Positions 35,434 to 40,884 of a stretch of DNA of 64,000 nucleotides are shown piece after piece (position 1 is the first letter of the stretch; the number at the start of each line of letters is the position of its first letter). The stretch comes from Halolamina litorea (GTDB lineage: Archaea; Halobacteriota; Halobacteria; Halobacteriales; Haloferacaceae). The stretch spans positions 1,364,001-1,428,000 of the forward strand of contig NZ_JANHGR010000001.1 in the NCBI RefSeq assembly GCF_026616205.1, in the 5' to 3' direction. The notes under the pieces are model-generated. The model saw only the letters and a list, made by a program, of their open reading frames with translations. It had not been told where the DNA came from and made no database searches. A program made the translations under genes and the position numbers.

Positions 35434-36966
35434 TCACCACGTCAGCCGGCGCTGGACGCCGGCGACGACGCCGTAGAGCGCCATCCCGAGCGCCGCGAGG
35501 GCGAGGGCGGCCGCGTAGGTGAGTTCGGGGTTGGTGTCGGTCATCCCCTGTAACAACAGCACACCGAGCCCGTCGCTCGTGAGGAACCACTCGGCGATGA
35601 CGGTGGCAGTGAAGCCGCCGACGACCGAGAGTTTGAGCCCCGCGAACAGTTGGGGGAGCGCGTATCGTGCCCGAGCCACCAGCACGCGGTGTCGCGGGGC
35701 GCCGACCGACCGGAGGAGGTCATACTGGCGTGCGGGCAGCCGGCCCGCCCCGTCGGCGGCGGCGAGGGCGACCGGGAAGACGGCGGCGACTGCGACCAAC
35801 AGCGCGGCGGTCGTCGGGCCGACGCGGAACCAGACGAGAAAGAGCGGGACGACCGCCACGTCGGGCACCGATCGGGCGGCGACGACGTGGCTGCCGAGCA
35901 GCCCCCGGAGCCGCGGGGCCAGTCCGACGACGGCGCCCACGGCGAGGCCGAGCAGCGAGCCGCCGCCCCATCCGATGGTGAACGTGAGCAGCGTCGCCGT
36001 GCCGGCGCCGACGAACAACCCGGCGGCGTCGAGGAGCGTCCGACCCACCGCGAGCGGCGCCGGGAGGAACAACGCGAGGTCGCGGGGGAACGCACCGCTG
36101 GCGACCTGCCAGACCAGCGCCCCGACACCGAACGTCGCCGCGGCGACGACGGCGTTCGTGGCGGGGTTGCCCGGGAGGTCGGCCGTGACGGTGCCGCCGC
36201 CGTCAGCGACGCCCGCCGCTGCAGCGTCCCAGCGAACCGCCGACTCGACCGTCCGTAGGAGCCCGAACAGCGCGATCCCGAGGCCGATCAACACGAGCAC
36301 GTACGCGAACAGCAGCGCGGTCTCGAACCGGGCTGCCGTCGCCTGCAGTGCGGCACCGATCCCACGGTTACCGACGAGGAACTCCGCGAGCACGACGGTC
36401 TGGACGGCGATGGGCGCCGAGACAGTCAGCCCGGTGAACAGCGCGGGCAGCGCGTCGGGCAGGCGGACGTACCGGAGCTGTTGCCAGCGCGAGGCCCCGA
36501 CGACCGACAGCGTCGCCAGTCGGTCACCGTCGGTCGATCGTAACCCCTCGATCGTTGCCAACGTGACCGGGAAGAACGTCACCAGCACCGCGATGGCGGC
36601 CCGAGAGGCCGCCGTCGGGCCGAGCACGAGCACCAACACCGGCAGGAAGACGACGACCGGCACCAGCCTCACCACGACGAGGAACGGGTAGCCGAGCCGG
36701 CTCGCGGCCGGGGAGAGCGCGATCGCGGCGGCGAGGGCGACGCCGACCGTGACGCCGATGGTCCAGCCGACGGCGACTTCCGCGGCGGTGTACGCGACGC
36801 TCGCGGCGATCGAGTGGGCGTTCGCGCCGAACGCCGCCGCGACGGCGACGGGGGAGGGAAGAAGCAGGTCAGGGAGACCGAGTACGGCAGCCGCGCCGGT
36901 CCACAGCACGAGCGCGGTTGCGACCGAGGCGAGGGCGAGCAGCCCTCCAGAGGACCATCGGGACAC
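35434..36966 (-). CDS. ABC transporter permease, two fused BPD domains
   Basis: A 510-residue membrane protein containing two copies of the binding-protein-dependent permease domain (about residues 10-245 and 265-510). Each copy has the EAA-like loop that contacts the ATPase: VVGASRWQQLRYVRLPDALP in the first and SVGAPRHRVLVARARYALPQ in the second. The SsuC/TauC/ThiX-type permease is usually a homodimer of a single-domain protein; here both halves are on one chain. Start GTG 36966, 7 nt after the upstream binding-protein gene. No ATPase gene follows; the operon ends here. Confidence 0.9.
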   Translation of the reverse strand: MSRWSSGGLLALASVATALVLWTGAAAVLGLPDLLLPSPVAVAAAFGANAHSIAASVAYTAAEVAVGWTIGVTVGVALAAAIALSPAASRLGYPFLVVVRLVPVVVFLPVLVLVLGPTAASRAAIAVLVTFFPVTLATIEGLRSTDGDRLATLSVVGASRWQQLRYVRLPDALPALFTGLTVSAPIAVQTVVLAEFLVGNRGIGAALQATAARFETALLFAYVLVLIGLGIALFGLLRTVESAVRWDAAAAGVADGGGTVTADLPGNPATNAVVAAATFGVGALVWQVASGAFPRDLALFLPAPLAVGRTLLDAAGLFVGAGTATLLTFTIGWGGGSLLGLAVGAVVGLAPRLRGLLGSHVVAARSVPDVAVVPLFLVWFRVGPTTAALLVAVAAVFPVALAAADGAGRLPARQYDLLRSVGAPRHRVLVARARYALPQLFAGLKLSVVGGFTATVIAEWFLTSDGLGVLLLQGMTDTNPELTYAAALALAALGMALYGVVAGVQRRLTW

Positions 36967-36973
36967 CGGCCCG

Positions 36974-38068
36974 TCAGCGCCAGTCGTCCGTGTAGTCGGC
37001 CGAGACCTGTCCGGCGAAGGAGCCGACGGCCGCGGCGTCGCCGTCGAGGTACGCGTTCGACCACGCCGCCTCGGCGTCGGCCTCGCCGGAAACGAACCCG
37101 GCCGCTGCGAGCGTCTGTTGGACGGACTCCCAGTCCGGACCGGCCTGCCAGCCCCAGCCGTGTTCGCTGACCGCGTCGGTCAACATGAGCTTCGCCACGG
37201 TTCCCTCGATCTTTCGGATGCCCAACTCGCGACCGCCCTCCAGTCGCGGCTCGGCGTCGATCATGAGGTCCATCGCGGCGGGCGGGTCGTTCGCCGCCCA
37301 GGCCCAGCCACGCGCGATGGCTCGGAGCGCCCCGCGGAGCGCCTCACCCTGCTCCTCGGCGAACGTGGGGTTGGCCGCGACCAGCCGGCCGGTCGAGGCG
37401 ACGTGATCGGAGAGCCAGAGCATCGAGGCGTCGTAGCCGTCCCGCTCCATGGCGATCCCGTCTGGGAACGCCCCGAGGGCGGCGTCGGCGTCACCCGAGA
37501 GCAGCGAGGAGGTCAGCCCGCCCCAGCCGACGCTGAGGAACTCGACCTCCCCAAGCACGCCCGCGTCGTCGAGCAGCGCCTTCAACAGTGCGAGGTTCGA
37601 CGACGAGGAGGCAGCGGCCACGGTCTTGCCCGCGAGGTCCGACGGTTCCTCGATGGCGCCGCCGAACTGCTCGGCGACGGTGTAGACGACGCTGTTGGGC
37701 CCCTGTTGGGCGGCGGCGTAGCTCCGGATCGACACGTCGCCGTTGCGCGCGCCGAGCACCGACGCCGCGCTGGTCAGTCCGATCTCGTACTTCCGCAGTC
37801 CGACCTGCTCGGCGGTGGTCGAGCCGCCGGAGCCGGATTCGATCGAGAGCGAGACGCCCTCCTCCTCGTCGAACCCCTTCTCCGCGGCGACGAAGTTGCC
37901 CGCGTGAGTGCCGTTGGCCTTCCAGTCGAGCAGCAGGCGAACCGTCGTCGGCTCCGGCGTCCCGCCGAGGACGGCCGAGCGGGCGTCGAGACAGCCACTC
38001 AGCGAAGCGGCGGCGCCAGCCCCGAGCGCGCCGAGGAACGCCCGGCGGCCCTGTCGGCGGTTAGTCAT
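36974..38068 (-). CDS. NMT1/THI5-type ABC substrate-binding lipoprotein
   Basis: A 364-residue binding protein. The N-terminus is a Tat-type signal (NRRQGRRAFLGALG) with lipobox SLSGC, so it is lipid-anchored outside the membrane. The mature domain starts VRLLLDWKANGTHAGNFVAAEKGF, the fold of NMT1/THI5 proteins that bind pyrimidine thiamine precursors, nitrate, sulfonates and similar ligands. Its ATG overlaps the preceding gene by 8 nt and it lies 7 nt before the permease. The ligand is not determined by sequence. Confidence 0.88.
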   Translation of the reverse strand: MTNRRQGRRAFLGALGAGAAASLSGCLDARSAVLGGTPEPTTVRLLLDWKANGTHAGNFVAAEKGFDEEEGVSLSIESGSGGSTTAEQVGLRKYEIGLTSAASVLGARNGDVSIRSYAAAQQGPNSVVYTVAEQFGGAIEEPSDLAGKTVAAASSSSNLALLKALLDDAGVLGEVEFLSVGWGGLTSSLLSGDADAALGAFPDGIAMERDGYDASMLWLSDHVASTGRLVAANPTFAEEQGEALRGALRAIARGWAWAANDPPAAMDLMIDAEPRLEGGRELGIRKIEGTVAKLMLTDAVSEHGWGWQAGPDWESVQQTLAAAGFVSGEADAEAAWSNAYLDGDAAAVGSFAGQVSADYTDDWR

Positions 38069-39068
38069 CGGTCGATTCGGCCGGCGTTCGGCGCCCCGCG
38101 CGGTCGAGAAACTCGGTGATCGCCGGGGAGTCGTCGAGGTACTCGTCAGTCCAGACCGACTCGGCGTCGACGGGGTTCTGTAGCGCGTTCATCTCGGCCA
38201 TACGGTCGACCAGTTCGGCCCAGCGGTCGCCGTCGTGGGTGCCCCACCGCTCGGCGAACGTGTCGTACTCGACGAAGCGGTCGAGCATCCAATCGAGCTT
38301 GCGGCGCTCGATCTCCCGGGTGTAGGCGAGGTCGGCGTTGCGGTCGACGACGGCGTCGATGGCCGCCGTGGGGTCCGCGACGGCGTCGGCCCAACTCCGG
38401 GCGCTGGCGCGCAGGAACGCTCGAACCGTCTCGGGGTTCTCGGCGGCGTACTCGGGGTTGGCGACGATGGCCATCCCGTAGATGGGGAGCTCCAGTCCGA
38501 TCGAGAGTTCGTGGGCCTCCTTGTCGTACTCGCGGGCCAACTCCTCGCCGTTCGTGACGACGCCGACCGCGGCGTCGACGGTGCCGTCGAGCAGCTTTCG
38601 CTGCGGCCGGTGGTGGGTGTGCTGGTCGACGCCGAGCAACTGCACCGAGTCCCGGATCCCGGCCTCGCGGAGCAACATCCCCGCGAGCAGCGAGGTCTTC
38701 GTCGCCGTCGGCGCGAGGGTCTTGCCGGCGAGCTGTTCGGGCGATTCGAGGGGCCCGCCGAACTCCTCTTCGAGCGTGAACACGGCCGCCGGGGTCCGGT
38801 GGGTCGCGCCGGCGACGGCGACGATGTCGTTGCCACGGCTCTTCGAGAGGACGATTCCCGAGCCGCCGGCCCACGCGAACTCACAGGAGCCGTCGGCGAC
38901 CCGTTCGGTGGCGAACGGCGAGCCCGTGCCGACGCCACCTCCGCGCGCGCCGAGCATCCGTACGTCCAACCCCTCGTCCTCGTAGTAACCGCGCTCGGCC
39001 CCGAGGAAGAAGGGCGCCTGGAACCCCGTCGGCTCCCAGTTGAGTTGGAAATCTACTTGGTCCGACAT
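38061..39068 (-). CDS. NMT1/THI5-like binding protein without export signal
   Basis: A 335-residue protein of the NMT1/THI5 fold that starts MSDQVDFQLNWEPTGFQAPF. The fold begins at residue 5, leaving no signal peptide, so it is probably cytoplasmic, unlike its downstream paralogue. It lacks the active-site His and the Cys-rich CCCFC motif of yeast HMP synthase THI5, so a binding or sensing role is more likely. First gene of the operon; TATA box and palindrome lie just upstream. Overlaps the next gene by 8 nt. Confidence 0.85.
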   Translation of the reverse strand: MSDQVDFQLNWEPTGFQAPFFLGAERGYYEDEGLDVRMLGARGGGVGTGSPFATERVADGSCEFAWAGGSGIVLSKSRGNDIVAVAGATHRTPAAVFTLEEEFGGPLESPEQLAGKTLAPTATKTSLLAGMLLREAGIRDSVQLLGVDQHTHHRPQRKLLDGTVDAAVGVVTNGEELAREYDKEAHELSIGLELPIYGMAIVANPEYAAENPETVRAFLRASARSWADAVADPTAAIDAVVDRNADLAYTREIERRKLDWMLDRFVEYDTFAERWGTHDGDRWAELVDRMAEMNALQNPVDAESVWTDEYLDDSPAITEFLDRAGRRTPAESTDD

Positions 39069-39087: not shown

Positions 39088-39102
39088 AACCACTTAGTGG
39101 TT
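39088..39102. promoter_or_regulatory. Perfect 15-bp palindrome at the ABC operon transcription start
   Basis: AACCACTTAGTGGTT is a 7-bp inverted repeat around one base. It falls at the predicted start site, about 20-30 nt below the TATA box of the minus-strand operon, where a bound repressor would block initiation. It is the best operator candidate in the window. Confidence 0.55.
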
Positions 39103-39112
39103 TCTGCTGAAC

Positions 39113-39122
39113 CTTTATAAGT
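39113..39122 (-). promoter_or_regulatory. TATA box of the ABC operon
   Basis: Minus strand ACTTATAAAG, about 49 nt before ATG 39068; predicted transcription start near 39090. The divergent regulator has a weaker cttatc box (about 39141-39146), 28 nt before its ATG. Confidence 0.5.
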
Positions 39123-39171
39123 AACCGTTGGGAGCGAGCCCTTATCACGGTCGACGGGTAAGAGACACCAG

Positions 39172-40407
39172 ATGAAGACGGTCGAGTATCCGGCGCTCGG
39201 GGCGGCCGACGAGCCGTTGGTCGATCGGTACGCCGTCGGCCTCGGTACCGACGCCGCGCGAGTGCTCGCCTACCTCCGCCTGCGGCTCGACCGACCCGAC
39301 ACCGCCGGGGAACCGGCGACGCGACTCGATATCCGGATCGGGACCGGGCTGAGCCGTGGTGCCGTCGGCGACGCGCTCGACCGGCTTGGTGATCTGGGGC
39401 TGGTGAGCGAGACGTCCGTTCGACGCCACGAGAGCGGCCGTCCACCACAAGCGTGGACGACCGATGCGTCCGTCACCCCCCGCCGGGCCTACGAGTGCCA
39501 CGCCAATCGGCTCCTCGATCAGACCGGAACCGCCGCCGACGAACCGGGATCGGGCCCCGACAAGCCACCGACGGCCGACGGCGACCCGTTCTCGGTCGCG
39601 CTGAACTGGCACCCGAACGCGCTCCACGCGCCGTTGTACGCCGGACTCGCCGGTGACCACTATTCGGACGGGGGGTTGGAGGTGACGTTCGATCCCCGAA
39701 CCGGCTCGGGGGCGGCACTGGACGCGGTCGCGGCCGGCGAGGTCGACGCCGCCCTCGTCGGCGCGGCGACGTTCGTCGCGGCGGCCCCCCCGGATGTGGT
39801 CCCGCTCGGACTGCTGTACGAGCGCGCGATGGCGGTGCTGTACGCCACTCACGACTCCTTCGGGGGCCCGTTCGAACGGGTCAGACAGCTCCGGGGCCGG
39901 CGGGTGGGGATGTCCGTCGGCTCCGAGACCGCGCGGCTGGCGCGGCTCCTGCTCTCACAGGTCGACACGCTGGAAGCGGTCGACATCGTCGACATCGGTG
40001 GCGAGGAACGCGAGGCGCTCCGCTCGGGCCGGGTCGACGCCGTCACCGGCCAGATATCCGACCCCGACCGGATCACCGACGGGACGGTGGAGACAGTGCC
40101 CGTCGCCGAGCAGTTCCCCCTGTACGGGCCCGTCCTCGTGGCCCGTGAGGCGACGCTGACCGAGCGACCGTCGGCGCTCCACGCGTTCCTCGTGGGGACG
40201 ATGTGTGGGTGGGCCGACGCCGCCGACTCGCCGGGCGAGGCCGTCGCCAGCGTCCCCGGCGTCGACGCCGACGATACCGGGGCTCGGACGACTGTGGAAC
40301 GAGCGATCGAGGAGTTCGGTTTCGACAGGTCCCACGGCTGGGGTGTGCACGACGAGGACGGCTGGCTCCGCCTCCGAACCGCACTCGCCCAAGTAGAGGG
40401 CTCGTAG
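39172..40407 (+). CDS. Winged-helix/NMT1-type binding-protein fusion regulator
   Basis: A 411-residue protein joining two parts. Residues ~20-105 form a winged helix (AARVLAYLRLRLDR to IGTGLSRGAVGDALDRLGDLGLVSE). After a Pro/Gly linker, residues ~139-411 are an NMT1/THI5-like domain (FSVALNWHPNALHAPLYAGLAG). There is no signal peptide, so the binding domain works inside the cell, presumably as the effector sensor. The fold is the same as the two binding proteins encoded divergently, which suggests it senses the imported compound and controls that operon through the palindrome at 39088-39102. Ligand unknown. Confidence 0.82.
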   Translation: MKTVEYPALGAADEPLVDRYAVGLGTDAARVLAYLRLRLDRPDTAGEPATRLDIRIGTGLSRGAVGDALDRLGDLGLVSETSVRRHESGRPPQAWTTDASVTPRRAYECHANRLLDQTGTAADEPGSGPDKPPTADGDPFSVALNWHPNALHAPLYAGLAGDHYSDGGLEVTFDPRTGSGAALDAVAAGEVDAALVGAATFVAAAPPDVVPLGLLYERAMAVLYATHDSFGGPFERVRQLRGRRVGMSVGSETARLARLLLSQVDTLEAVDIVDIGGEEREALRSGRVDAVTGQISDPDRITDGTVETVPVAEQFPLYGPVLVAREATLTERPSALHAFLVGTMCGWADAADSPGEAVASVPGVDADDTGARTTVERAIEEFGFDRSHGWGVHDEDGWLRLRTALAQVEGS

Positions 40408-40478
40408 CCGGTCGCTACGGGCCGGTTCTCGCCGATAGCGGCCACAAGTGCTTTTCAGCGCCCCCGTGAAGCCGACCT

Positions 40479-40871
40479 ATGCCGGTCATCATGCACGCGC
40501 TCCCGGAGGCCGACTGGGCCGCCGCCGAGCGTGCCGGGGAGTACCGCCCCGCCTCCCTCGACGAGGAAGGGTTCATCCCGCTACAGGACCCTGCCGACAT
40601 CGTCGCCCACACGAACGAGCGCTACGCCCGCGAGGAGCGCGACGACATCGGCGTGTTCGCCGTCAGGAGCGAGACGCTCGGCGACGCGTTGCGCTACGAG
40701 GACATCGACGGCGGGCGCCGGCCACGGCTCTACGGCTCGGTCGCGCCCGACGGCGTGGCCATGTGGGGGCACTTCCCCCGGGACCGCCACGGCTTCCACC
40801 TGCCGGAGTGGGCGGTCGATCTGGTGGCGGCCGATCGGCTCCCGGAGGAAGCGAACGGGGAGTTCCGCTGA
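40479..40871 (+). CDS. DUF952 family protein
   Basis: A 130-residue soluble protein of the DUF952 type. It has the ALPEADWAAAERAGEYRPASL beginning, the GFIPLQDPADI segment and a C-terminal PRLYGSVAPDGVAMWGHFPRD region. The family is uncharacterised and has been compared with ADP-ribosyltransferase-like folds. A gtgcttttcag box lies about 27 nt before the ATG. Stands alone, convergent with the Lrp gene. Confidence 0.8.
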   Translation: MPVIMHALPEADWAAAERAGEYRPASLDEEGFIPLQDPADIVAHTNERYAREERDDIGVFAVRSETLGDALRYEDIDGGRRPRLYGSVAPDGVAMWGHFPRDRHGFHLPEWAVDLVAADRLPEEANGEFR

Positions 40872-40884
40872 GAACGGTCGTCGG

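Follow-up and report, generated by a model that had tools for sequence, protein, structure and literature searches.

Genes and promoters at the locus

The window (the whole stretch of 64,000 nucleotides of the Halolamina litorea genome that was analysed) includes a minus-strand ABC transporter operon and, divergent from it, a gene for a candidate regulator. The first gene of the operon, SBP1 (38061–39068, with its ATG at 39068), encodes an NMT1/THI5-like protein without a signal peptide, whose closest solved relatives are ThiY (PDB 3ix1) and yeast THI5/THI13 (4h65, 4esw). It is followed by SBP2 (36974–38068), an NMT1-family, lipoprotein-type substrate-binding protein, and by a permease (35434–36966), a single protein that contains two transport stretches. 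The TATA box of the operon (TTATAAA, 39114–39120, minus strand) is fully conserved, at nine of nine positions within 39114–39122. With the archaeal TATA-to-start spacing (PMC4158304), transcription is predicted to begin at 39091–39095, some 26 nt away from the centre of the TATA box, with a pyrimidine-purine TG at 39092/39091. The initial annotation had placed a perfect 15-bp palindrome at this transcription start, and it is indeed there: AACCACTTAGTGGTT occurs exactly at 39088–39102, with 7-bp arms about a single-base centre at 39095, and the predicted start near 39091 falls within it, so that it spans roughly −11 to +4.

The candidate regulator is encoded at 39172–40407 on the plus strand, with a TATA-like TTATC (39142–39146; conserved block GGAGCGAGCCCTTATC) 30 nt before its ATG. 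This layout was found in just one further species, Halolamina salifodinae (L040/L065), where synteny extends over both flanks. A DUF952 gene between the regulator and an Lrp-like gene (40479–40871) seems to have no counterpart at the matching place in H. salifodinae, and DNA alignments to that species leave out 40397–40881. In other genera, SBP1 is the third gene of an operon A-B-SBP1, translationally coupled behind the preceding genes, and in several of these genera genes for formate-dehydrogenase-like, molybdopterin-type, and halocyanin-like proteins seem, by eye, to lie near the regulator (L068, L066, L101, L090).

At the N-terminus of the regulator is a predicted winged helix-turn-helix (HTH) with a weak resemblance to MarR, joined to a binding domain of the ThiY/THI5 type. 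This C-terminal domain matches Pfam NMT1 at 75 bits (cut-off 20.5), as it does in all 12 regulator members examined, and its closest solved relatives are again ThiY (3ix1, E 3e-15) and THI5/THI13 (4h65, 4esw). MarR_2 was matched by six of the 12 members (best E 0.0014), the window protein not being one of them. Membership in the TrmB family was rejected on the C-terminal domain, which is NMT1 in 12/12, and on TrmB HTH matches that are marginal (3/12, E at least 0.066). Identity with ThiR (HTH-ThiN) was also rejected, the domain matches of the window protein being all NMT1-related and none ThiN. A structure model of the protein has a mean pLDDT of 35. HTH-NMT1 fusions are widespread in haloarchaea, annotated as ABC transporter substrate-binding or hypothetical proteins, with the DNA-binding part overlooked. 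A literature search for an HTH-NMT1 regulator or for the 23-bp box described below found neither in the collection covered.

A conserved 23-bp box in the operon promoter

Across haloarchaea, a box of the form TAAANGTT-N7-AACNTTTA recurs in two sets of promoters, those of the orthologous transporter operon and those of a linked operon whose THI5/NMT1-like proteins lack a signal peptide. When expectation-maximisation was run on promoters of SBP2 orthologues from other genera, the motif TAAAcgtT..tcCgaAt..TTTAT emerged, with a log-likelihood of 285 vs. 72–81 for shuffled sequences. The best hits of this matrix in the window are at 39095–39118 (10.5 bits; the next unrelated hit scores −0.8), a score that shuffling the intergenic region reaches in 0.2% of cases. 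In 18 of 20 genomes tested, the box is also present some 50 nt ahead of the first gene of the A-B-SBP1 operon, gene A, and these copies are closer to a perfect palindrome than the others (e.g., TAAACGTTTCCTAGAAACGTTTT). A second matrix, built from these gene-A sites with the SBP2-promoter sites left out, recovers most of the latter in 746 kb of loci, and its top site in the 64-kb window is 39095–39117 (19.0 bits, with an expectation of 0.16 per genome).

The window copy, TAAAGGTTCAGCAGAAACCACTA (39095–39117, minus strand, axis 39106), is degenerate, with two mismatches to the pattern, both in the distal TAAA arm, and six of 11 symmetric pairs. It is kept in H. salifodinae as TAAATGTTCGAAAGAAACCCCTA, and the box is likewise kept at orthologous target promoters, those of SBP2 and gene A, in many genera. 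It overlaps the operon's TATA box at one end and extends to the predicted start at the other, as expected of archaeal operators that overlap the TATA box or the start. In other genera the box is upstream of the TATA box or on it, and at the window promoter downstream of it, so its mode of action here might differ. A weaker second match (39122–39144, three mismatches, 6–7 bits) lies over the regulator promoter and is not conserved in H. salifodinae. A conserved 15-mer, CACTTAGNGGTTTCT, was also tried as a genome-wide motif and showed no excess over the control.

Each of the two Halolamina genomes has two copies of the box at relevant genes. In that of H. litorea there is one perfect match to TAAANGTT-N7-AACNTTTA (C3:35449–35471, TAAAGGTTACCAACCAACCTTTA) and a single two-mismatch match, the window site, which ranks second in 3 Mb behind the perfect copy. 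No third site was found in this genome at up to two mismatches, and therefore no broad thiamine regulon is seen. H. salifodinae has one perfect match (C1:573124), a two-mismatch match at the orthologous promoter, and one unrelated two-mismatch match. The perfect boxes of both species have gene A, which is NMT1-like and has B behind it, on one side and a divergent cupin-glyoxalase pair on the other, and at this promoter the box covers both divergent TATA boxes. SBP1, elsewhere within A-B-SBP1, is located in Halolamina at the regulator locus, with the box in its promoter.

Some features of these neighborhoods may be noted separately. Genes A and B, both NMT1-like and without an evident signal peptide, adjoin the cupin-glyoxalase pair at several loci (L207:8502–10384, L201, L181–L200). 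With SBP1 they make up, in other genera, three consecutive cytosolic THI5-like proteins, which is odd for an ABC transporter. The H. litorea genome has a second NMT1-type transporter operon (G000:C1:1797960–1799036, L084), and no box was found within 13 kb around it.

Co-occurrence of the box and the HTH-NMT1 protein

Within the family, the box (at most one mismatch) is present in 17 of the 20 genomes with the regulator vs. four of the 147 without it (Fisher P 9e-17). It is found beside NMT1/target genes in 16 of these 17 regulator-bearing genomes and in none of the four regulator-less ones. Three genomes (G112, G122, G135) have the regulator and transporter without SBP1, and the box is still at the transporter promoter. 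The HTH-NMT1 fusion, named earlier as the nearest candidate protein, stays the best putative binder on this co-occurrence.

A different factor could nonetheless read a genuine box, for example a ThiR-type protein with a ThiN domain or a general haloarchaeal regulator, with the HTH-NMT1 protein acting on targets elsewhere. At least two genomes (G216, G454) have the box at the gene A/cupin promoter, yet the HTH-fused regulator was not found in them. The regulator genes' own promoters also mostly lack the box outside Halolamina. When 34 non-redundant regulator promoters were searched for shared motifs, TATA/BRE alone came up. Such a division of roles is at odds with the strong family-level link, with the three genomes that retain the box in the absence of SBP1, and with the lack of a third site in the Halolamina genome, and we regard it as unlikely.

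Across the order, the association of the strict pattern with the regulator is weak (16/50 vs. 32/248). The strict pattern was rejected as a test of the regulator at this level, since facing TATA boxes, such as those of TBP genes, also match it, and clade-specific sites confound it further. Conserved box-like sites were seen between the facing TATA boxes of TBP genes in g62/g70 (L243–L256) and upstream of a short conserved gene in the genus g44 (L229–L240); no regulator homologue was found in the two genomes checked from clades with box-like sites (G185, G237). Taking the family-level association together with the counter-evidence from G216, G454, and the order-wide counts, it is therefore highly likely that an operator exists at 39095–39117, and the sequence comparisons favour, with less assurance, the HTH-NMT1 protein as the one that would bind it.

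The palindrome at the predicted start

The palindrome had been proposed as a regulatory site, and in part this holds: a cis-regulatory box is indeed present in the promoter and overlaps it, with an axis (39106) about 11 bp away from that of the palindrome. Symmetry of AACCACTTAGTGGTT is in itself weak evidence for an operator, because chance produces similar palindromes about as often in the window, which has 19 of the same shape compared to 9–22 across ten dinucleotide shuffles. Shuffles of the 103-bp intergenic region yield one in 0.4% of cases for a 1-nt centre, 1.4% for centres of 0–2 nt, and 3.8% for 0–8 nt, a rarity that is modest given that all intergenic regions were scanned.

The earlier suggestion that the motif be sought in the rest of the genome and in relatives, as a sign of conservation at orthologous operons, led to none. 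There is no second copy of AACCACTTAGTGGTT in its own genome at up to two mismatches, and the number of three-mismatch matches is comparable with the control. In a search of 167 family genomes, its own included, it was absent from the 166 others, and no counterpart was found at about 60 regulator or about 40 SBP1 orthologues. Two of 58 orthologue upstream regions have a palindrome of the same shape and unrelated sequence. Upstream of the regulator in other genera, where that gene is not divergent from SBP1, there is no such palindrome. Even in H. salifodinae the counterpart, GTGCACTTAGGGGTT, retains only three of seven symmetric pairs. It matches AACCACTTAGTGGTT at 11 of 15 positions, which is what the intergenic alignment averages (10.97 in 15 columns). 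The regulators of the two Halolamina species are 72% identical overall, and the same operator would be expected in both species because their predicted recognition helix (SRGAVGDALD) and wing (SVRRHESGRPPQAW) are identical.

If the palindrome itself were the operator, a regulator dimer would sit symmetrically about 39095 and block initiation. Its perfect symmetry at the predicted start and its low frequency in shuffles of the region are in keeping with this, as is the fact that the gene-A box of the same genome, too, is followed by TAAGTGGT. The restriction to one genome, the average conservation in H. salifodinae, and the lack of counterparts at orthologues are not, and the box matrices give a 23-mer centred on the palindrome axis −21 to −30 bits, vs. 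+18 to +19 for 39095–39117; there is little probability that the palindrome is the site. From its sequence, AACCACTTAGTGGTT appears to be the start-site half of the 23-bp box plus the adjacent AGTGGTT, with no conserved role of its own. An RNA hairpin was rejected by inference as a further reading, since a start near 39091 leaves most of the palindrome untranscribed.

That both palindrome and box match arose by chance, in an AT-rich divergent promoter of a GC-rich genome with help from facing TATA-like sequences, is very improbable: paired TATA boxes of TBP gene promoters do fit the strict pattern, low promoter GC inflates scores, and the window copy is degenerate, but few shuffles attain the first-matrix score, the site's genome-wide rank of second comes with a position adjoining relevant genes, and with the TATA-shared letters removed P is still 4e-5 to 6e-4 for the window and, independently, 3e-4 to 4e-3 for H. 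salifodinae (both ranges background-dependent).

Proposed regulation and comparison with known systems

Overall, a 23-bp operator at NMT1/THI5-family operons, bound by the divergent HTH-NMT1 regulator and acting in repression, is the reading we find reasonably likely. A predicted regulator dimer on 39095–39117 would block TBP/TFB or RNA polymerase; we infer repression, not activation, as the likely mode because the box stretches from the TATA box as far as the start site, and repressor sites overlapping these elements are standard in archaea (PMC4158304). The C-terminal ThiY/THI5-like domain would sense a transported or derived ligand, which might loosen or strengthen the regulator's hold on the box. 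By analogy, this ligand is probably a pyrimidine-like thiamine precursor, the best guess since both the regulator domain and SBP1 are closest to ThiY, which binds formylaminopyrimidine, and to THI5.

A fuller version can be offered more tentatively, at slightly less than even odds. It would be an undescribed one-component system of haloarchaea, in which a winged HTH is joined to a cytosolic THI5/ThiY-type domain that recognizes a compound its cytosolic relatives also handle. Acting through the 23-bp, TATA-overlapping box, this regulator would repress the uptake operon as well as the operon of three signal-less THI5-like proteins. These three are perhaps precursor-handling enzymes or ligand carriers and not transporter subunits.

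The nearest comparison is with TrmB systems, where a one-component winged-HTH regulator likewise adjoins an ABC uptake operon and represses from a palindromic site over the BRE/TATA or the start, with degenerate or half sites also occurring, as at mdxE (PMC4158304). Known operators there include TACT-N3-AGTA for Pfu TrmB at malE and the TGM, TATCAC-N5-GTGATA (PMC4158304). The box differs from these in sequence, and where TrmB has its sugar-binding domain, the sensor here has the fold of a ThiY/THI5-like binding protein. ThiY and THI5/THI13 themselves have no HTH, unlike the window regulator, and are a transporter binding protein or an HMP-P synthase.

ThiR, with an HTH-ThiN architecture, is reportedly the thiamine repressor of haloarchaea (Hwang et al. 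2017, cited in PMC8305020). The protein proposed here would resemble it as an archaeal repressor thought to sense a compound of the thiamine pathway. It differs in its ligand domain, which is NMT1/THI5-like and not ThiN, and in its predicted sites, of which the genome has just two, each at genes of the NMT1 family. The proposed regulon would be a new one of a kind already known, in which a one-component regulator of archaea acts at an operator overlapping the TATA box.

For the promoter, the comparison illustrates that a degenerate site recovered by genome comparison can be more informative than a perfect palindrome that it overlaps. For the protein family, annotated so far as substrate-binding or hypothetical, the outcome is a predicted operator, a candidate regulator, and a putative regulon of two operons.
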